DNA of 64,000 nucleotides, taken from contig CACOMO010000002.1 of NCBI GenBank assembly GCA_902628335.1, positions 1-64,000 on the forward strand, written 5' to 3'. The notes under the pieces were generated by a model. That model worked only from the letters and a program-made list of their open reading frames with translations, was not told where the DNA came from and made no database searches. Origin of the DNA: an uncultured Gammaproteobacteria bacterium. GTDB taxonomy: Bacteria; Pseudomonadota; Gammaproteobacteria; GCA-002705445; GCA-002716945. Of this stretch, positions 21,099 through 33,522 are shown in pieces; position 1 is the first letter of the stretch, and the number at the start of each line of letters is the position of its first letter. Position numbers and translations under genes: made by a program.

Positions 21099-21888
21099 TA
21101 ATGGAAAAAAACTCTTTTGTTGTTTTGTATGTAGATTTTCTAACTAAATCTAATTCTCTATTTAAGCATTTTGCTACGAAACTTGCAACGTATGGTAAAT
21201 AATGAGGATAATTTATTTTACCTACATTTTTTTCGATATTATGTGGTATGAGATATGGGCAATCTGTTTCAATCATCAGTCTATCACTAGGGATATATTG
21301 TATTATTTCATGAAGGTGTGAGCCTCTAGCTTTATCAGTTATCCAGCCTGTTATTCCAATATATGAACCAAGATCTAAGTATTTTTTCAAAATATTTTTA
21401 TCTCCAGTAAAACAGTGAACAACAAATTTTTTTAATTTAGTAGATGCTGATGCAAGTATTGTATAAAAATCATTATGTGCATTTCTTTCATGTAAAAATA
21501 ATGGTGTTTGTGAATCTATAGCAAGGTTTAAATGATTTTCAAAACAAAATATCTGATCTTTTTTTTCTGAATATAATCTATAATAATCTAATCCACATTC
21601 ACCAATCGCTACGATGAATTTATTTTGCAACAGAGCTTTTATGTCCTTAATATCGGTATGATTAAATTCTTTTGCATTATGAGGATGAAAACCAACAGTT
21701 GCATATAACTTCCCTGGAAACTTTTCCGCTATTGAAATAGCTCTATGAGCATCATTTAAGGTTGCAGATATAATTACAGCATGTGTGACATTTACATCGC
21801 TCATCTGTTGTATGATTTTTTTTATATTGGGGTATAAATCTGGATGAGTTAAGTTTGCTCCAATATCTATTATTGGAGATTCAGACAT
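21082..21888 (-). CDS. tatD: TatD-family metal-dependent deoxyribonuclease
   Basis: TIM-barrel amidohydrolase-fold 3'-5' nuclease. IDIGANLTH, VGFHPHNAKEF, AIGECGLDYYR and IETDCPYLIPH hold the metal-binding residues. IGITGWITDKARG resembles E. coli TatD itself more than YcfH or YjjV, although the usual metal-binding HxH at the N-terminus appears as GANLTH. Length 268 residues. Its ATG shares one base with the mtkB stop (TAATG), placing a DNA-repair-type nuclease in a central-carbon operon, probably by compaction rather than function. Confidence 0.88.
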   Translation of the reverse strand: MSESPIIDIGANLTHPDLYPNIKKIIQQMSDVNVTHAVIISATLNDAHRAISIAEKFPGKLYATVGFHPHNAKEFNHTDIKDIKALLQNKFIVAIGECGLDYYRLYSEKKDQIFCFENHLNLAIDSQTPLFLHERNAHNDFYTILASASTKLKKFVVHCFTGDKNILKKYLDLGSYIGITGWITDKARGSHLHEIIQYIPSDRLMIETDCPYLIPHNIEKNVGKINYPHYLPYVASFVAKCLNRELDLVRKSTYKTTKEFFSINDQPV

Positions 21889-22775
21889 TACACTTTTGAT
21901 AAGACAGAAGCTACAGTCTCACCTATAACGGAAGGATTCTTTGCAATTGTGATGCCCGCATTTTTGAGGATTTCCACTTTCTCAGCAGCAGATTCTCCAC
22001 CAGCACTTACAATAGCGCCTGCATGTCCCATTCTTTTTCCTTTAGGAGCAGTCAATCCAGCAATGTAAGCCACAACTGGCTTTGAGATATTTTCTTTGGC
22101 ATACTCAGCTGCTTCTGCCTCTTGCGGTCCACCAATTTCTCCGATCATTAAAATAACCTTCGTCTCATCATCTTTTTCAAATTTTTCTAAGTGATCTCTG
22201 AATGCGCTTCCATTAATAGGATCACCACCAATCCCTACGCTTGTAGAGATACCTATGTCTAGGTCTTTCATTTGCTGTGCTGCTTCGTATCCAAGTGTTC
22301 CAGATCTGCCTATTACACCTACATTTCCCTCATTATATATATGCCCTGGCATTATGCCTAACATGCATTTGCCGGGGCTAATCACACCAGCGCAATTAGG
22401 GCCAACCATAGTCATCCTGTCTTCATTTTTATACCTTCTCATGTATCTCTTTACCTTGATCATATCATGTGCAGGTATACCATCAGTTATTGCAACCAGT
22501 GTTTTAATGCCTGCATCAGCTGCCTCCATAGCTGAATCTGCTGCAAAAGCTGGAGGTACAAACAGGATGCTGCTATCTGCTCCAGTTTCCTCAACAGCCT
22601 CTTTTACAGTATTAAATACAGGTTTATCTAAATGAGTCTGGCCACCTTTACCAGGTGTTACTCCGCCTACTACATTAGTTCCATATTCCATCATTTCTTC
22701 GGCATGAAATGTACCTATTTTACCTGTAAAGCCTTGGACAATTATTTTAGAATTTTTATCTATCAAGATTGCCAT
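21888..22775 (-). CDS. mtkB: Malate-CoA ligase, alpha subunit
   Basis: ADP-forming ligase subunit that carries the phospho-histidine; with MtkA it makes malyl-CoA from malate, ATP and CoA in the serine cycle. The CoA-binding fold starts IVQGFTGKIGTFHA, and the active His251 lies in RMGHAGAIVSAGG. It resembles succinyl-CoA synthetase alpha, but GSNVVGGV-type wording, ITDGIPAHDMIKVKRYMRRY and MLGIMPGHIY match Methylobacterium MtkB much better. The pairing with mtkA and malyl-CoA lyase in one operon supports this. Succinyl-CoA ligase remains the alternative until a separate sucCD is shown elsewhere in the genome. Confidence 0.88.
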   Translation of the reverse strand: MAILIDKNSKIIVQGFTGKIGTFHAEEMMEYGTNVVGGVTPGKGGQTHLDKPVFNTVKEAVEETGADSSILFVPPAFAADSAMEAADAGIKTLVAITDGIPAHDMIKVKRYMRRYKNEDRMTMVGPNCAGVISPGKCMLGIMPGHIYNEGNVGVIGRSGTLGYEAAQQMKDLDIGISTSVGIGGDPINGSAFRDHLEKFEKDDETKVILMIGEIGGPQEAEAAEYAKENISKPVVAYIAGLTAPKGKRMGHAGAIVSAGGESAAEKVEILKNAGITIAKNPSVIGETVASVLSKV

Positions 22776-22778
22776 TTT

Positions 22779-23945
22779 TTACAGTGACTCCAGTGCTTTT
22801 ACGGCTTTGTTAGCAGCATCCTCGAGTGTGAATGCTTCTATGTAATCAATTTTACTATCTTTTAGAATTTTAATCCCTTCATCAACATTTGTTCCTGCGA
22901 GTCTTATAACAAGTGGTTGTGTAATTTGGATTGAGCTTAAGGCGTCAACAATACCTTGGGCAACCCAATCACAACGATTAATTCCAGCAAAAATGTTAAT
23001 GAGTATAACTTTTACGTTTGGATCACCTGATATAAGCTTAAAAGCTTTCACAAATTTTTCAGGAGTAGCGCCACCGCCAACATCTAGAAAATTTGCTGGT
23101 TTACCACCTGCAAGTTGAATCATATCCATTGAAGCCATTGCCAAGCCAGCACCATTGATGATGTTACCAATATCACCATCTAACGCAATGTAATTTAATC
23201 CTCGATCAGCTGCATAAGTTTCTTTTGGATCTTCTTGTGTTTTATCCCTCAACTCTGCTAGAGCCTCATTTCTATATAATGCATTATCATCAAATGACAT
23301 TTTGCAATCTAGTGCTAATATATGATCATCCCCTGTGAGAACAAGTGGATTTATCTCTACCATAGTAGCATCAGAAGTACTGAAAGCTTTATAAGCTCCA
23401 AGTATGGCTTGTGCACATCTTGAAATTGCTTTTGCATCTAAACCTAGCGAGAATGCAATCTCTCTTGCTTGAAACGCTTGCATACCAACTGCAGCTTCAA
23501 TTTTAGTTTTAATTAAAGTCTCTGGTTTTTCTTGAGCAATTTCCTCTACACTCATTCCTCCAGCAGATGATGCAACTACCATTATACTCTCAGTGCTCCT
23601 GTCAAATACTAAACCAAGGTAAAATTCTTTTTTTATATCTGTACCTTCTTCAATATAAATTCTCTGAACAGTTTTGCCTTCTGGGCCAGTTTGATTTGTT
23701 ACTAGCTTTTTTCCGAGAAGATTGTTAGCAGCATCTGATACCTCTTGAAGACTCTTGCATACTATGATGCCACCTGCTTTACCTCTCGCACCTGAGTGAA
23801 TTTGTGCTTTTACAACCCACATTTCACCTCCAAGCTCTGAAGCTCTATCTTTTGCATTCTCAGGGCTATATGCTATTCCACCTTTTGGTATTGATACACC
23901 ATATTTAGATAGAATTTCTTTTGCTTGATACTCGTGTATATTCAT
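22779..23945 (-). CDS. mtkA: Malate-CoA ligase, beta subunit
   Basis: ATP-grasp subunit of the malate-specific CoA ligase. [12 protein letters not shown] and [14 protein letters not shown] are the ATP-grasp start, MVEINPL the metal site, and the C-terminal domain has [13 protein letters not shown]. The segment [16 protein letters not shown] is characteristic of MtkA, whereas SucC has the form FGGIVRCDLIA. The 388-residue length fits. The ATG shares one base with the malyl-CoA lyase stop, and mtkB follows three bases after its stop, so lyase and both ligase subunits are expressed together. Confidence 0.9.
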
Positions 23946-24886
23946 TATTTTTTGGATTCTATTAACTCACTTATGTTCACAACATTTCTAGCCATCCTCT
24001 CTGATGCTGCATCAATCATTCTTCCATCAAGTTGTGCAGCACCCTTACCTTGGTCAGCTGCTTTCTTTAGTTCGTCTATGATTCTTTTTGCTCTCGTAAT
24101 CTCTTCCTCTGGTGGAGAAAATACGTTATTCGCATACTCTATCTGTGATGGGTGAATTGCCCATTTCCCCTCAATACCAATTGCAGCTCCTCTCTTCGCA
24201 GCAAGAACATAACCATCGGGATCATTAAAATCACCGAATGGTCCATCAATTGGTCTCAATCCAAATGCCCTGCATGTTGCAACTAACTTTGATAACCCGT
24301 GATGCCATTGATCTCCTGGATAATCAGGATTTAGTCCCCCTATGACAACAGTTCTTGCACGTAAACTAGCAGCATAGTCTGCTACACCAAAATGTAAAGC
24401 TTCTAACCTATTAGATGATTGAGCAATTTCCTCGATATTGACCATACCAAGCGCTGTCTCAATTAAACATTCAAGCCCCACTTTGTTGACCAATCCTCTT
24501 TCCTGTTCTATTTGACTTATCATGCAGTCTACCATGTAGACGTCACCTTTAACGCCAACTTTTGGAATCAAAATTGTATCTATGTATTCCCCGGCTTGGA
24601 TCATTAACTCAACAACATCTCTGTACATATAATGAGTGTCAAGTCCGTTGATTCTGACAGAGATAGTTTTACCATTTCCTCTCCAATCTAATTCTTTCAA
24701 AGCTTGAATTACATTTTCACGAGCGATGACTTTATCGCTTGGAGAAACTGCATCCTCTAAATCTAGAAAAATGTAATCAGCAGCTGATTTAAGTGCTTTT
24801 TCAAACATTTTGGGTGATGATCCAGGAACGGCTAGTTCACTTCTCTGTAATCGCGATTTTGCGTTAGGATAAGATGTATGACTCAT
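23945..24886 (-). CDS. mcl: Malyl-CoA lyase (CitE-like family)
   Basis: Cleaves malyl-CoA to glyoxylate and acetyl-CoA, and can run in the condensing direction. [29 protein letters not shown] (metal/acidic site), [24 protein letters not shown] and KWAIHPSQI are all present, and the text follows Methylobacterium MclA closely. At 313 residues it has a slightly shorter loop after GGLNPDY than MclA. It heads the operon mcl-mtkA-mtkB-tatD-queH, with a 138-base region upstream that holds an inverted TTGACA repeat. This is the enzyme set of the serine cycle and of related glyoxylate pathways. Confidence 0.9.
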
Positions 24887-26819: not shown

Positions 26820-28592
26820 ATGATAAAAAAATTTTGTCAATTTCTTCTAATAGTACTTTTCTCCATTTCATCTCCACTAAATGCTCAATCTACTCTAGAT
26901 AGAGTAGTTGTAACTCCAAATAAAAGATCTACTTTAGTTTTCGATACACTCAATTCTGTAGAAGTAATAACATCTGAAATGATTAAAAAAAGTGGCAATG
27001 TTACACTTGAGAGTATTCTTAATCAATCTAGCTCAATTAGCATTGGGAGTAATGGTGGTTTTGGGCAAACTAAATCTATCTTTATGAGAGGAACTGAGAG
27101 TAATCATACAAAAGTTCTAGTAAATGGTGTCGAACTTAATCCAGGAACTCTTGGTGTTCCATCTATTCAACATATATCAGTTGATTTGATTGAAAGAATT
27201 GAAATATCGAAAGGTAGCATGTCAACCCTATATGGTAAAAACGCTATTGGTGGTGTCATAAATATAATTACAAAAAAGAACTTTCACAACGAAGTTAAAT
27301 ATCTTACTGGTAGATATGGAACTCAAAAGATCTCTTATTCAGATGGCATTAATTATCTAAAACATGATTTTAACTTAAACATCTCTAGATTTATAAGTGA
27401 CTCCTATAAAGCAAAGGTCACCTCGTCACAAAATCATAAATATGACAATGCTAATATTGACATGGCTTACAAGTATAATGTTACTGATCAGACTCACATT
27501 AATCTAGATTATTACAGAAATACTGGCAATACGGAATATGATAGCTTTGGAAGTAATTTGAATCAGAATCACAGGGATAATCACATTAAATTTAGTTTAA
27601 ATACAATTAGTAAGGATTCTAATTTGGATGTTTTTTATGTCAGAAAAGGAAACGAGATTAATCAGGCGGTTGCAGGAGCAACTGATTTTACACATACAAA
27701 ATCAGATTTAATTGGATTAGAATATTCGTTAGATGATTCAGATGATGGAAGTATACTATTAGGTTTTAACTACAGTGATGAATCTATGTACGAACTATCC
27801 TTTGGAACTTCATTTAAACATTCAAATCGAATCAGAGAATTCCTCATCAGTAGGTCTATGATTTATCAGGATAATTTAAGTGTGAACTTAGGATTAAGAT
27901 TTATAAATCACTCTGTATTCAATGACTATACAATTGGAAATATAAATTTAGGATATACCATTACTCCAGATTTAATAATTAATGCAAGTGTTGGCAAATC
28001 ATTTAGGCCTCCGGATGCTACTGATTTATTTGGTTTTAGTGGTAATGCTAACTTAAATCCTGAAAAATCAATCTCATCAGAATTTGGCATGAAATATAGG
28101 ATAAATAATAACGATTCTTTATCACTATCAATTTTTAATAATGAAATCAGAAATTTAATCGAATCTGATGGCTCACAAATGCAGAATATAAATAAAGCAA
28201 GAATAACAGGATTTGAACTAAATTTTGACAAAACACTTAATGATATGACTTATAAGCTTAATTATACCTATCAGGAAGCTGATGATTTAACAAATGATAC
28301 ATTACTGTCACGAAGACCGAGAAACAAGATTAGTGCAAATATTTTAAAAATTTTTAATGATGAACAGACATTGAGTATGATGATAAGAGCAGAATCGAGA
28401 AAAGATAACTCAATATATGACTCACACCGTTTAGGTGGATATATGATAATTGATGCAAACTATATTAGAAAATTTAATAGTTTCGATGTTAGTCTGAGAC
28501 TTGAAAACATACTAGATAAAAAATACCGATTAGCGCATAACTATAATACTGATGGTAGATCCCTATTCATAAGTCTAGGTAGTAGTTTCTAA
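26820..28592 (+). CDS. btuB: TonB-dependent outer-membrane receptor, probably for cobalamin
   Basis: Outer-membrane active transporter of 590 residues. A signal peptide ends near LNAQS (residue 22-23). RVVVTPNK just after it is a plausible TonB box. The plug domain contains VFDTLNSVEVIT, RGTESNHTKVLVNG and IERIEISKGSMSTLYGKNAIGGVINI, and the barrel ends with GSSF. Placement right behind a cobalamin riboswitch is the main reason for the B12 call; sequence alone would also allow a siderophore receptor. Translation starts nine bases after the GGGAGG that the riboswitch can mask. A probable inner-membrane partner follows at 28627. Confidence 0.87.
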   Translation: MIKKFCQFLLIVLFSISSPLNAQSTLDRVVVTPNKRSTLVFDTLNSVEVITSEMIKKSGNVTLESILNQSSSISIGSNGGFGQTKSIFMRGTESNHTKVLVNGVELNPGTLGVPSIQHISVDLIERIEISKGSMSTLYGKNAIGGVINIITKKNFHNEVKYLTGRYGTQKISYSDGINYLKHDFNLNISRFISDSYKAKVTSSQNHKYDNANIDMAYKYNVTDQTHINLDYYRNTGNTEYDSFGSNLNQNHRDNHIKFSLNTISKDSNLDVFYVRKGNEINQAVAGATDFTHTKSDLIGLEYSLDDSDDGSILLGFNYSDESMYELSFGTSFKHSNRIREFLISRSMIYQDNLSVNLGLRFINHSVFNDYTIGNINLGYTITPDLIINASVGKSFRPPDATDLFGFSGNANLNPEKSISSEFGMKYRINNNDSLSLSIFNNEIRNLIESDGSQMQNINKARITGFELNFDKTLNDMTYKLNYTYQEADDLTNDTLLSRRPRNKISANILKIFNDEQTLSMMIRAESRKDNSIYDSHRLGGYMIIDANYIRKFNSFDVSLRLENILDKKYRLAHNYNTDGRSLFISLGSSF

Positions 28593-28626: not shown

Positions 28627-29181
28627 ATGATTAAGCTAAAGGAAAAAATATACGATTTGAAATTACTGCTGGCTATAATAGGATTTTTTTTGATCCTGTT
28701 AATCTTAAGTAGATTGCTTGTAGAAGTACCCAATTTTACTCCAACATTATCATTAGTTATTTTCGCATCACTTTTTATAAGAAATATTTATGCACTAATT
28801 TTCATAGTAATAGCCTCGCAGTTAATTAGTGATTATTTCTTAGGGTTCTATGAAAGTATGTTTTTTGTTTACATATCATACATACTCATAGGGATTTACT
28901 CGTTGCTTTTTTTAAAGAAAGTTAATTATTTTCCAATATTGAAGACATCGATAGGTGCGGCTGTATTTTTTTACATTATTACCAACTTTGGTGTTTGGTT
29001 TACAATGAATTTATATGAACCTGATATGCAAGGTCTAATCAATAGTTACATTGCAGGACTTCCTTTTCTTAAGTCGTCGATCTTATCTACTGTTATTTAC
29101 TCGTCAACAATATATGTCTTTTGCAAGTATCTTTTTGTTGTAAACTTTGAAAAGATTCAAACTATTAAAAAAATAGATTAA
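28627..29181 (+). CDS. Membrane protein of the DUF6580 type, probable vitamin transporter component
   Basis: A 184-residue protein with about five membrane helices. The form (repeated [15 protein letters not shown] and [29 protein letters not shown]) resembles the DUF6580 family, whose members are often found under cobalamin riboswitches and recall S-components of ECF transporters. It lies 34 bases after btuB with no terminator, so it is probably under the same RNA switch. A role in B12 or corrinoid-precursor entry across the inner membrane is inference. Its stop overlaps the convergent nrdB stop. Confidence 0.7.
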
Positions 29182-30353
29182 TCAAACTTTAACTGTCCAC
29201 CAGTTTTGTATTCAGTAACTCTAGTCTCGAAAAAGTTCTTCTCTTTTTTAAGATCCATTATTTCAGACATCCATTCAAATGGATTAGTTGCGCCAGGGAA
29301 TTGTTCTGGTAAACCTACTTGAGTTAATCTTCTGTTCGCAATATATTTTATGAATTCTTCATACAGACTTGCGTTAATTCCTAAAATCGGTTTTGGCATT
29401 GTGTCATATGCGTACTGAGTTTCTAATTTTACTCCAGTCATAATCAGTTCCACCATCTCTGATTTAAAACTATCTGTCCATAATTCTGGATTCTCAAGTT
29501 TTATTTGATTAATAACATCAATACCAAAATTCATGTGCATAGATTCATCTCTTAAAATATATTGAAATTGTTGTGCAACACCAGTTAATTTATTTCTTCT
29601 ACCCATAGATAATATTTGTGTGAAACCTACGTAGAAGAAGATGCCCTCAAATACAACATAAAATGCTATTAGATCTCTAAGTAACCTTTGATTATTTTCT
29701 TTGGATCCTGTTCTGAAATTTGGGTCTCCCAGACTCTGGGTAAATGGTAATGCCCACTCTGCTTTTGTCGCTACAGCAGGTATTTCTCTATACATATTGA
29801 ATATACGTGTTTCTTCAAGTCCAAGTGATTGAACACAATATGTATATGCATGCGTATGTATTGCTTCTTCAAATGCTTGTCTCAGTAAATATTGTCTACA
29901 TTCTGGATTTGTTATATGTCTATATACTGCTAGCACTAAATTATTCGCGACTAGTGAATCAGCAGTAGAAAAAAACCCTAAATTTACCTCAACAATTTTC
30001 CTCTCATCTTCAGTAAGTCCTTTAGGGTCATTCCATAACTTAATGTCGTCATGCATGGCTATTTCTTCAGGCATCCAGTGATTGGCAGATCCATCTAGAT
30101 ATTTCTTCCATGCCCACTCATATTTAAATGGTACCAGTTGATTCAAGTCTGCCCTGCAATTGATGATTGCCTTATCATCTACTCTTATTCTATTAGCACC
30201 TTTTTCTATATTCTCAATACCAGTGAGACCCTCCTGAGGATCAGTATTTTCATTTTGAATAATAGATTCGTTAAGATTATCAGTTTCAGGTTCTGATATT
30301 TTTGGCTCAGGTTTGCTCAATGCTTCATTTATAGGATCGTCCCAGTTTCTCAT
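29178..30353 (-). CDS. nrdB: Ribonucleotide reductase class Ia, beta subunit
   Basis: Carries the diiron-tyrosyl radical that activates NrdA. Iron-ligand motifs are visible: DSLVANN (Asp), [12 protein letters not shown] (Glu, His and the radical tyrosine region), [10 protein letters not shown] (Glu) and [10 protein letters not shown] (Glu, His). I chose the ATG at 30353, with AAGGCGG eight bases upstream, giving 391 residues starting [12 protein letters not shown]. Extending this frame to 30539 would run through the small ORF and into nrdA and adds a cysteine-rich stretch unlike the family. An acidic, proline-rich N-terminal segment of about 50 residues precedes the conserved core. Confidence 0.94.
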
Positions 30354-30358
30354 AATAA

Positions 30359-30514
30359 TTACCGCCTTTGTTTGTTCGTTAAATGCTGCCATCCTTTCAG
30401 CGCAGACAAATTCTTTTTGGTTATTTCGAGTTCTTCCAGTTCTCTTTTGATATTCACAATTGTATACAACAGTAGTGTCACAACAACTGCAATTGATGAA
30501 ATAATATATATCAT
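30359..30514 (-). CDS. Small single-pass membrane protein between nrdA and nrdB
   Basis: A 51-codon ORF fills the gap between nrdA and nrdB. Its ATG overlaps the nrdA stop (ATGA) and has GAGG seven bases upstream; a second ATG two codons earlier (30520) is possible. It ends five bases before the nrdB ATG. The product has one strong membrane helix (about residues 2-22: [20 protein letters not shown]) and then a charged, helix-forming tail ([20 protein letters not shown]) ending in basic residues. Exact fit between the two genes and a sensible protein pattern argue that it is real. I do not recognise a family; function unknown. Confidence 0.72.
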
Positions 30515-33366
30515 TGACATGCCTCACATTCTGGATCATCTATCAAGCACTGCTTGTCCTCAGTATTATTACTTACCGCATTTAGAGCAGAACCACTATT
30601 ATCTGTTGTACTCTTTTCAACATGTGTAGCTCCAAGTGATCGTAAATAATAAGTCGTTTTCAATCCTCTAATCCATGCAAGTTTATAAGCACTATCTAGT
30701 TTTTTACCATCCGTGTCTGGAATATATAAATTGAGAGATTGAGACTGATCAATCCATTTTTGTCGTCTCGCAGCTGCTTCAACAAGCCACCTAGTATCTA
30801 TCTCAAAGCATGTTTGATAGAGAGTTTTCAGATCATCCGGCACTCTACTAATTGAGCCAAGTTGACCATCAAAATATTTTAAATCTTTAATCATTACTTC
30901 ATCCCAAATATTTGCCTTCTTAAAGTCTTCAATTAAATAAGGATTGATCACTGTGAATTCGCCTGATAAATTTGATTTAACATAAAGGTTTTGATATGTT
31001 GGCTCTATCGACTGAGAGACACCACATATATTTGATATCGTAGCTGTTGGAGCAATGGCTAATGTATTCGAGTTTCTCATACCATTCTTCTTAATCTGAT
31101 CTCTAAGTTTTTGCCAATCAAGTGTCTCGCTCATATCAACATCTAAATATTTACCACGTATTTTTTTCAGATTTTTCAGGCTATCTATCGGAAGTATTCC
31201 TTGACTCCAAAGTGAACCATCAAAAGATTCATATGAACCTCTTTCCTTTGCTAACTCCATCGATGCAGAAATAGCAAAGTAGCTTATAACCTCCATACTT
31301 TTATCTGCGAAGCCTACAGCATCTTCAGATGCATATGACATTCTAAGTTTATAAAGTGAATCTTGAAAACCCATAACCCCTAAACCTACCGGTCTATGTT
31401 TAAAATTAGAGTTTTTTGCTTTGTCTACACTGTAATAGTTATAGTCAATGACATTATCGAGCATTCTCATTGCAGTTTTTACAGTCTTCTGTAATTTTTT
31501 GATATCAAGCTGCATATCATCTGTTATATGAGCAGACAGATTGACAGAGCCTAAATTGCAGACAGCGATTTCGTCTTTTGATGTGTTTAGAGTAATCTCA
31601 GTACATAGATTTGAAGAGTGAACGACGCCTGTGTGTTGTTGAGGTGATCTCAAGTTACAAGGATCTTTGAAAGTTATCCATGGATGCCCTGTTTCAAAAA
31701 GCATACTTAATATTTTTCTCCATAAATCAACAGCTTTAACTCTTTTAAAATTGCTTATCTTGCCTTGGTCAGCTAAATTTTCATACTCAGTATATTTTTT
31801 TTCAAAATCTAAACCTGTCAAGTCATGAAGATCTACAGTGTCATTTGGTGAAAAAAGCGTCCATTCTTCGTCGCTGTGCACTCGTTTCATAAATAGATCA
31901 GGAATCCAATTTGCAGTATTCATATCATGAGTTCTTCTTCTATCATCACCAGTATTTTTTCTTAGTTCTAAGAATTGTTCTATGTCTAAATGCCAAGTTT
32001 CTAAATAAGCACACATAGCTCCTTTTCGTTTGCCACCTTGATTAACCGCAACTGCTGTATCATTAGCAACTTTTAAAAAAGGTATAACCCCCTGACTTTT
32101 TCCATTGGTTCCTTTTATATATGACCCAAGCGCTCTAACTTGTGACCAATCATTTCCAAGACCTCCTGCAAACTTAGATAGCATCGCATCATCACTTATG
32201 CCCTCAAAAATGCCCTTAAGGTCATCTGGTATAGTTGATAAGTAACAAGAGGACAATTGTGGACGAAGAGTCCCCGAATTGAATAAAGTTGGTGTACTAC
32301 ACATAAAATCAAAAGATGAGATTAAATTATAAAACTCTACAGCTCTTTCTTCTCTATTCTTCTCATTTATTGCAAGCCCCATAGCCACTCTCATAAAAAA
32401 TGCTTGAGGCAATTCGAACCTAGTCTCTTTCGAATGTATAAAATATCTATCATATAAAGTTTGTAAACCAAGATATGTGAAGGCTTTATCTTTATCAGCA
32501 TCAATATGCTTACACAAATAATCAAGATCAAAATTTAATAATTCCTTGTCAAGCAAATTAAGTTCACACGCTTTGACTAAATATGATTTAAAATAAGAAG
32601 GATAAAGATCATTAATGTCATCTAGTGTAGGAGCATTATTGGACTCACCTAAAAAAGTTAGTGCTTCCTCGTAAATATTGCTTAAGAGAAGTCTGGCTAC
32701 TACGTATGAATAATTTGGATCTTTTTCGATTAAGGGTCTTACTGAAATCAATATTGAGCTTGGTAGATCTTCTTTTTTTATGCCATCGTAGATATTTTTA
32801 TCAATTGTTTGATAAACTACTTCAGCAGATACATCACTGATATTTTGACAACTCTGGGAAATAATTAAACGTAATTTTGATAGATCTAATTCTTCCGTTG
32901 TTCCGTCTTCTAGTGTTACAGATTTGTCTATTGGCAAATCTTCTAGGTCTTCGGTTATATTTTGGTTTCTCGCCTTAGTTCTTTCTTCACGATAAAGTAC
33001 ATACGATCTTGCCACATCTTGGTAACCCGCACGCATTATAGCTAACTCAACCTGATCTTGTATATCTTCAATGTGGACAACTCCGCCTTCAGGGAATCTC
33101 CTCTTAATTGCAGAGTCGACTTTGTTAGCCAAATTCTCAACTTCATTATGGATTCTTGTCGACGCCGCAGCACTACTACCCTCTACGCTTAAGAAAGCCT
33201 TAGTCATAGCTACTACTATTTTGCTAAGATCATATGATGTTACCTTGCCATTTCTTCTCATTACTCGATACTTACCTGGTATAGGTGGCATACTTAGATC
33301 TTTTTCGTAGACATCAGCTTCCGCTAACTCAGCATGCTGATTTTCATTATGTAATTCTTCTTTCAT
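30511..33366 (-). CDS. nrdA: Ribonucleotide reductase class Ia, alpha subunit
   Basis: Catalytic subunit reducing ribonucleoside diphosphates. At 951 residues it is about 190 longer than E. coli NrdA because two ATP-cone domains appear at the N-terminus (about residues 30-125 starting [19 protein letters not shown], and about 150-235), as in Pseudomonas aeruginosa. [11 protein letters not shown] and NLCTEITL carry active-site cysteines, and the C-terminal CEAC pair receives electrons. Two cones suggest dATP inhibition through one of them. The promoter region upstream holds paired NrdR boxes and DnaA-like sites. The stop overlaps the small membrane ORF. Confidence 0.95.
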
Positions 33367-33468: not shown

Positions 33469-33497
33469 ATTATACCACTAAATATTGTGGTTGTAAG
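33469..33497 (-). promoter_or_regulatory. Promoter of the nrdA operon
   Basis: On the minus strand a perfect -10 TATAAT (33474-33469) follows a -35 CTTACA (33497-33492; four of six consensus bases) with 17 bases between. NrdR box 1 fills the spacer exactly. The implied leader is about 95 bases to the nrdA ATG. The rest of that leader shows nothing else definite. Confidence 0.65.
33475..33490 (-). promoter_or_regulatory. NrdR box 1
   Basis: CCACTAAATATTGTGG, a near-palindrome that fits the NrdR consensus acaCwAtATaTwGtgt at its core positions. It lies between the -35 and -10 of the nrdA promoter, so a bound repressor would block RNA polymerase. Confidence 0.85.
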
Positions 33498-33506
33498 TAC
33501 GTTGAA

Positions 33507-33522
33507 ACTCAATATGTTGTGT
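33507..33522 (-). promoter_or_regulatory. NrdR box 2
   Basis: ACTCAATATGTTGTGT, fitting the same consensus with few changes. Its start is exactly 32 bases from that of box 1, the three-helical-turn spacing typical of paired NrdR sites. Confidence 0.82.

Follow-up and report, generated by a model that had tools for sequence, protein, structure and literature searches.

The nrdA-nrdB Locus

The window (the whole stretch of 64,000 nucleotides that was analyzed) belongs to an assembly of 910 kb in 19 contigs and carries the two subunit genes of a class I ribonucleotide reductase (RNR), with a short open reading frame (ORF) wedged between them. The features of the locus are as follows.

33507..33522 and 33475..33490, minus strand: two NrdR-box-like sites with 1 and 2 mismatches, their starts 32 bp apart
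33497..33469, minus strand: promoter-like CTTACA-17-TATAAT with TG, overlapping the second NrdR-box-like site
30511..33366, minus strand: nrdA, class I ribonucleotide reductase large subunit, 951 amino acids (PF02867, PF00317, and PF03477; NF005544; ATP-cone matches)
30522..30525, minus strand: GAGG, Shine-Dalgarno (SD)-like, within the last codons of nrdA and 7 nt 5′ of the ORF's ATG
30518..30520, minus strand: alternative in-frame upstream ATG giving a 53-amino-acid form, the less likely start
30359..30514, minus strand: microprotein gene, 51 codons plus stop, with one predicted membrane helix (about residues 4-20) and then a charged helical tail
29178..30353, minus strand: nrdB, ribonucleotide reductase small subunit, 391 amino acids (PF00268; NF005550)

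The ATG of the ORF (30514..30512) overlaps the nrdA stop TGA (30513..30511) as ATGA, the terminal codons of nrdA being GAG GCA TGT CAA TGA; its stop TAA lies at 30361..30359, and the ATG of nrdB begins 5 nt further, from position 30353. The original prediction had described this arrangement (a 51-codon frame starting on the nrdA stop, with GAGG 7 nt upstream and its end 5 nt before nrdB), and its coordinates were confirmed, on the minus strand. The shorter form is preferred over the 53-amino-acid form because an ATG overlapping the nrdA stop is found at all 22 junctions of the order described below (as ATGA at 17 and TAATG at 5), compared with 13 of 22 that have ATG at the upstream position, where GTG (3), TTG (5), and CTG (1) also occur. 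When the bases of the gap were shuffled 20,000 times at random, 234 shuffles kept 50 codons open, and only 2 of these 234 had a 17-residue window with a hydropathy of at least 1.9, compared with 2.57 in the real ORF. Since shuffles so rarely match both its openness and its hydropathy, and since the frame also evolves as coding sequence, the ORF is more than a chance opening.

A longer frame of 453 amino acids that reaches position 30539 could have made the region an N-terminal extension of nrdB; it is broken by a stop in one relative (G024) and out of register with nrdB in another (G022), and this candidate was rejected. No RNA element was found in the gap, there being no Rfam match at gathering scores across the whole window. 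On the 3′ side of nrdB, and facing it, are genes for a DUF6580 membrane protein (window 28627..29181) and a TonB-dependent receptor (26820..28592). Farther away (21888..24886), sucD/sucC-like genes adjoin a CoA-ester lyase-like gene, a group that presumably resembles the set formed by malate-CoA ligase and malyl-CoA lyase.

Conservation within the Order

Our sample of the order, whose members are gammaproteobacteria with small genomes, consists of 25 genomes from one family and six genera, with assemblies of 0.7-1.2 Mb. NrdB is present in 22 of them, and the nrdA-nrdB junction is uncut in 21, of which one (G021) carries it on two contigs, giving 22 junctions in all; outside this count are G023, in which NrdB is cut, and G005, G009, and G014, in which NrdB was not found. 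A one-helix ORF lies between nrdA and nrdB at 22/22 junctions and in all six genera, so that a comparison of the gap in related genomes, which the original prediction had proposed as a check, found the frame conserved in 21/21 genomes with an uncut junction. The ORF is 42-67 codons long, its end lying at every junction within a range from 12 nt short of the nrdB start to 8 nt beyond it, and a purine-rich, SD-like stretch for nrdB falls in or just after its last codons.

The sequence itself is far more variable than the placement. A search with the window's protein located the ORF between nrdA and nrdB in 14 genomes; in the seven genomes of genus g2 it is too diverged for a sequence search and was located by position. 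Outside g1 and g6 the copies are 15-46% identical to that of the window (15-26% in g2), and in an alignment of 19 of the 22 sequences, from which the second G021 copy and the N-bearing copies of G020 and G017 were omitted, the only invariant columns are I2, Y3, and R24. The alignment gives the copies of g5 and g2 an N-terminal extension, which was also seen by eye in g4, and on this reading the start site would have shifted between genera. The alignment supports homology of the junction ORFs, that of the g2 copies being suggested by position, architecture, and alignment at 15-26% identity. The tail is nearly unchanged among four g1 genomes (G000, G024, G022, and G020, the last with N's and one K to R change), but from genus to genus it differs greatly, and g2 has a shorter one. 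NrdA and NrdB are about 75-97% identical to those of the window except in G002, whose NrdB aligns in three pieces.

In G021 the nrdA-ORF-nrdB junction occurs twice, on contigs C5 and C8 (L016 and L005), with the same microprotein; the assembly is reported to be 4% contaminated, and perhaps two strains were binned together.

Selection on the Reading Frame

The original prediction had also named an excess of synonymous over nonsynonymous change as a sign of a coding frame. As a null model, the base changes observed in each genome pair were moved at random among sites carrying the same base, and their codon effects were counted. The seven disjoint pairs showed 54 synonymous changes where the null mean was 28.2, 60 nonsynonymous changes where it was 79.5, and 0 stops where it was 6.3, and the highest of 4,000 null synonymous counts was 44; with the pairs reversed the counts were 51, 61, and 0. 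The excess that had been looked for is thus present (54 synonymous changes and no stops, compared with 28.2 and 6.3 expected). Adding an eighth pair (G021a-G019) gave 73 synonymous, 82 nonsynonymous, and 1 stop change against 38.0, 107.5, and 10.4 expected, with 40, 30, and 86 changes at the three codon positions and no synonymous excess in the two shifted frames (P = 0.96 and 0.95). The nrdA tree groups G021 with g5 (support 0.79), against its genus label of g1, and because of this conflict the seven-pair result is taken as the basis, although the pair G021a-G019 is still disjoint in that tree.

Both halves of the protein show the signal, the helix more strongly: in the eight pairs the helix part has 48 synonymous changes against 22.3 expected and the tail 23 against 14.5 (P = 0.004), and rough nonsynonymous-to-synonymous ratios from the same counts are about 0.27 for the helix and 0.57 for the tail. 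Twelve pairs were tested singly, among them pairs that share branches; the pooled figures come only from the disjoint sets of seven and eight. One of the twelve, G013-G015, is contrary (3 synonymous and 14 nonsynonymous changes), and three (G000-G024, G006-G007, and G004-G002) are too close for significance alone.

Selection may also act on initiation. The Glu codon of nrdA that forms the SD-like sequence is GAG in 21/21 genomes of the order, compared with 164 of the 574 Glu codons (28.6%) found elsewhere toward the 3′ ends of these nrdA genes. Among outgroup loci, this position is GAG in 38 of 83 overall and in 8 of the 24 with low GC; a few of these loci are the same contig counted twice, and the order's genomes are related to one another, hence the comparison is given without a P value. 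On the evidence of its evolution and placement, the ORF is almost certainly a real protein-coding gene.

Upstream Region and Predicted Co-expression

NrdR-box-like sites were sought with a consensus pattern. At 3 mismatches this pattern has 21 matches in the window, where 18.5 are expected, so a single match is uninformative. A pair with the same 32-bp spacing lies upstream of nrdA in all 11 named relatives that could be tested (L053 is cut), the upstream box having zero mismatches in 9 of the 11, one in L043, and three in L044; binding of NrdR to two boxes about three helix turns apart has been described (PMC9110341). Promoter-like sites, of which one overlaps the second box, occur in the region no more often than expected (18 against 19.9). 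Because the spaced pair recurs in 11/11 relatives, the microprotein gene very probably shares an NrdR-controlled transcript with nrdA and nrdB, and its position would imply both co-transcription and translational coupling with the two genes.

Predicted Protein and Family Searches

The product is predicted to be a single-pass membrane protein. The strongest 17-residue hydrophobic window scores 2.1-3.0 in all 22 copies, and all 22 lack Lys and Arg before this window but have 1-5 of them within the 15 residues that start at its end. By the positive-inside rule, this pattern predicts an N-out/C-in orientation with the charged helical tail in the cytosol. An AlphaFold2 model consists of one helix spanning residues 2-50 (mean pLDDT 76), with a mean pLDDT of 91 for residues 11-20, 80 for residues 21-30, and 65 or less from residue 31. 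Prediction by hydropathy and by this model thus bears out the membrane helix and charged helical tail that had been proposed at the outset.

Five members of the family were scanned against Pfam and NCBIfam with no match over cut-off (best E 0.014 and 0.0048, respectively) and against PHROGs with a best E of 0.013; the profile found no relatives in the PDB at E 1, and no conserved Cys or His and no metal or redox motif is present in the 19-row alignment. The g2 sequences suggested a CcmD relocated to the nrd operon. This identity was rejected because five nrd ORFs have no PF04995 match at E 1 and because the genome has a separate CcmD-like ORF on another contig, which scores 25.3 bits against a cut-off of 25.6 and adjoins CcmE (110 bits). 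A phage homing gene was likewise considered and rejected: the 53-amino-acid form has no match at E 1 in the phage collection and no nuclease domain.

Distribution and Origin

A first survey covered named loci whose NrdB is related, namely the best 80 among the matches listed. The ORF is present in all 12 loci of the order; among the 68 others, 55 have NrdA upstream, and at none of these 55 does a short one-helix ORF of this kind sit on the nrdA stop. Inserts of 1.2 kb in L079 and 4 kb in L093 do hold frames with a hydrophobic stretch, but these are longer and unrelated; the frame in L079, read mechanically, starts before the nrdA stop. The insert of L079 (3830..5001, a Methylococcus bin) places about 1.2 kb of other frames between nrdA and nrdB, one of them, by eye, cytochrome b561-type-like.

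A second survey turned to the other families of the class, with 68 loci drawn from the best NrdB matches listed and some contigs in common with the first, and found no counterpart at the 61 junctions with NrdA upstream; at 13 of the 61 the NrdB N-terminus was unmatched, so that the scan continued as far as the retrieved sequence went, a point that by the listed match positions falls inside nrdB. Three loci have a hydrophobic frame of 30-46 amino acids away from the nrdA stop (at +87, +109, and +198), which we take as chance. At five loci (L076, L085, and L103 in the first survey, L149 and L163 in the second) the nrdB match overran the end of nrdA and left the gap unscanned; on a second look nrdB starts about 15 nt after nrdA in four of the five, the exception being L085, whose gap was not resolved. 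Many outgroups have nrdB some 15-60 nt after nrdA with no extra cistron, and in others the two genes are hundreds of nt apart. When the 19-sequence profile was run against 369 genomes of the class, it matched four family members at E 1.2e-11 or better and seven other genomes weakly (E 0.015-0.058); in the two of these whose nrdB has a known place (G068 and G122), the weak match lies away from it.

Three other gammaproteobacterial records (L107 99..366, L106 159..441, and L075 102..366, counted from the nrdA stop) have a different conserved ORF in the nrdA-nrdB gap, of about 87-93 amino acids, which ends at or just past a possible nrdB start. The L107 copy reads MSLKAELKQIFYDL...PGRDEIAHFC...WWMILEPLR and has no Pfam match at E 1.

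In the surveys made, the microprotein gene was found in this order alone, and on the simplest reading it arose or was inserted in the order's ancestor, in a gap that in outgroups is often tens of nt long. An order-specific gene thus seems to have originated within an operon that is itself ancient and highly conserved, and the outgroups that do without it offer a clear comparison.

Possible Roles

The reading that we prefer is that the microprotein is a membrane anchor or regulator of RNR that acts by tail binding, to which we give a probability of about 0.4. Its synthesis, controlled by NrdR, would keep pace with that of NrdA and NrdB, and it would insert in the cytoplasmic membrane so that the N-terminus is exposed outside and the charged helical tail faces the cytosol; the tail would bind NrdA or NrdB during their synthesis and hold or adjust the reductase at the membrane. 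The invariant placement, the selection seen in both halves of the protein, the pair of NrdR-box-like sites, the fixed GAG, and the near-unchanged g1 tail all point in this direction. It is also unlikely that an extra 130-200 nt kept inside the operon is idle, because the assemblies are of only 0.7-1.2 Mb. Against this, the helix is more constrained than the tail in the pooled test, unlike the expectation for a tether that works by tail binding alone, and the tail diverges strongly between genera while NrdA and NrdB stay about 75-97% identical to those of the window. The G013-G015 pair, with no synonymous excess, argues in the same direction; the RNRs of the surveyed outgroups manage without the microprotein, and a shared operon is no proof that the products meet. 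The wider proposition, that across the order as a whole a dedicated, co-translated microprotein holds the class I RNR at the cytoplasmic membrane or controls it from there, is one that we advance a little more hesitantly still.

The location of bacterial RNR has itself been disputed, a proposed replication hyperstructure that holds RNR standing against a report of NrdB spread evenly through the cytoplasm (PMC2826317). A membrane anchor or regulator, if real, would give an enzyme regarded as cytosolic a dedicated membrane partner. It would also provide a genetic handle on the location of RNR and represent a novel means of positioning or controlling the supply of dNTPs.

Many small proteins with a single helix belong to respiratory or transport complexes as subunits, and the ORF could accordingly encode a membrane protein of this size that serves some other process (respiration, transport, or the envelope), came to lie in this operon, and is merely co-expressed with the reductase. 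We regard this as rather unlikely: the gene lies between nrdA and nrdB in all six genera, only weak profile matches occur outside the family (7/369 genomes of the class, E 0.015-0.058), and the product is not CcmD, which is carried elsewhere in the genome.

The ORF might instead serve as a translational-coupling cistron, passing ribosomes from nrdA to nrdB and so setting the NrdA:NrdB ratio, with a peptide that matters little so long as it is harmless. The start on the nrdA stop and the end close to the nrdB start (22/22 for both), the SD-like stretch for nrdB in or just after the last codons, the fixed GAG codon that suggests selection on initiation, and the wide variation of length and sequence between genera would all fit such a device. 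Amino-acid selection in both helix and tail, the one-helix architecture kept in 22/22 copies, and the many outgroups that place nrdB 15-60 nt after nrdA with no extra cistron argue against it, and it seems to us a slightly less likely explanation still.

A role as a cofactor helper, in which the peptide aids the supply of iron, electrons, or a thiol reductant to the center of NrdB or NrdA, is improbable. The gene does lie directly 5′ of nrdB, and there is a precedent in MntS, a small E. coli protein reported to help metal reach manganese enzymes, with NrdEF among those tested (PMC4361602); the microprotein, however, has no conserved Cys or His and no metal or redox motif in its alignment, its invariant residues being only I2, Y3, and R24. 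A chance ORF with no selected product, for which AT-rich DNA (which often gives hydrophobic frames) and the G013-G015 pair might speak, is already refuted within the limits of the permutation test by a pooled synonymous count above all 4,000 null draws, by the lack of signal in the shifted frames (P = 0.96 and 0.95), and by the same placement in six genera.

Comparison with Known Systems

Small proteins that serve or bind RNR are familiar from bacteria (NrdI, YfaE, and NrdH) and yeasts (Sml1, Dif1, and Spd1), and all of these are soluble. The microprotein resembles them in being small and, if the anchor or regulator reading holds, in acting on a class I RNR, and the bacterial ones are often encoded beside RNR; it differs in its predicted membrane helix, which none of them is known to have, and in matching no family over cut-off. 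The original prediction knew of no membrane partner of NrdA or NrdB; a search of the open-licence PMC literature likewise showed no described partner of this kind from bacteria and no small membrane protein encoded between the two genes. Reading frames between nrdA and nrdB do occur in phages, in the form of homing endonucleases (T5-like AKFV33 and, as cited, phage U5; PMC3326045; PMC3322345); these share the location of the microprotein but are phage DNA-cutting enzymes, and the microprotein has no nuclease domain. CcmD (PF04995) is similar in its length of about 40 amino acids, its single helix, and the basic residues that follow it, whereas the five nrd ORFs scanned do not match its profile at E 1.

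The closest parallel in form is with single-pass microproteins of the CydX, KdpF, AcrZ, MgtR, and SgrT type, which bind a larger partner and in some cases come from the partner's operon. Like the microprotein described here they are about 30-70 amino acids long with one membrane helix, and several are encoded in the operon of the protein they bind; their partners, however, are membrane proteins, whereas the operon partners here are the soluble subunits of an enzyme.
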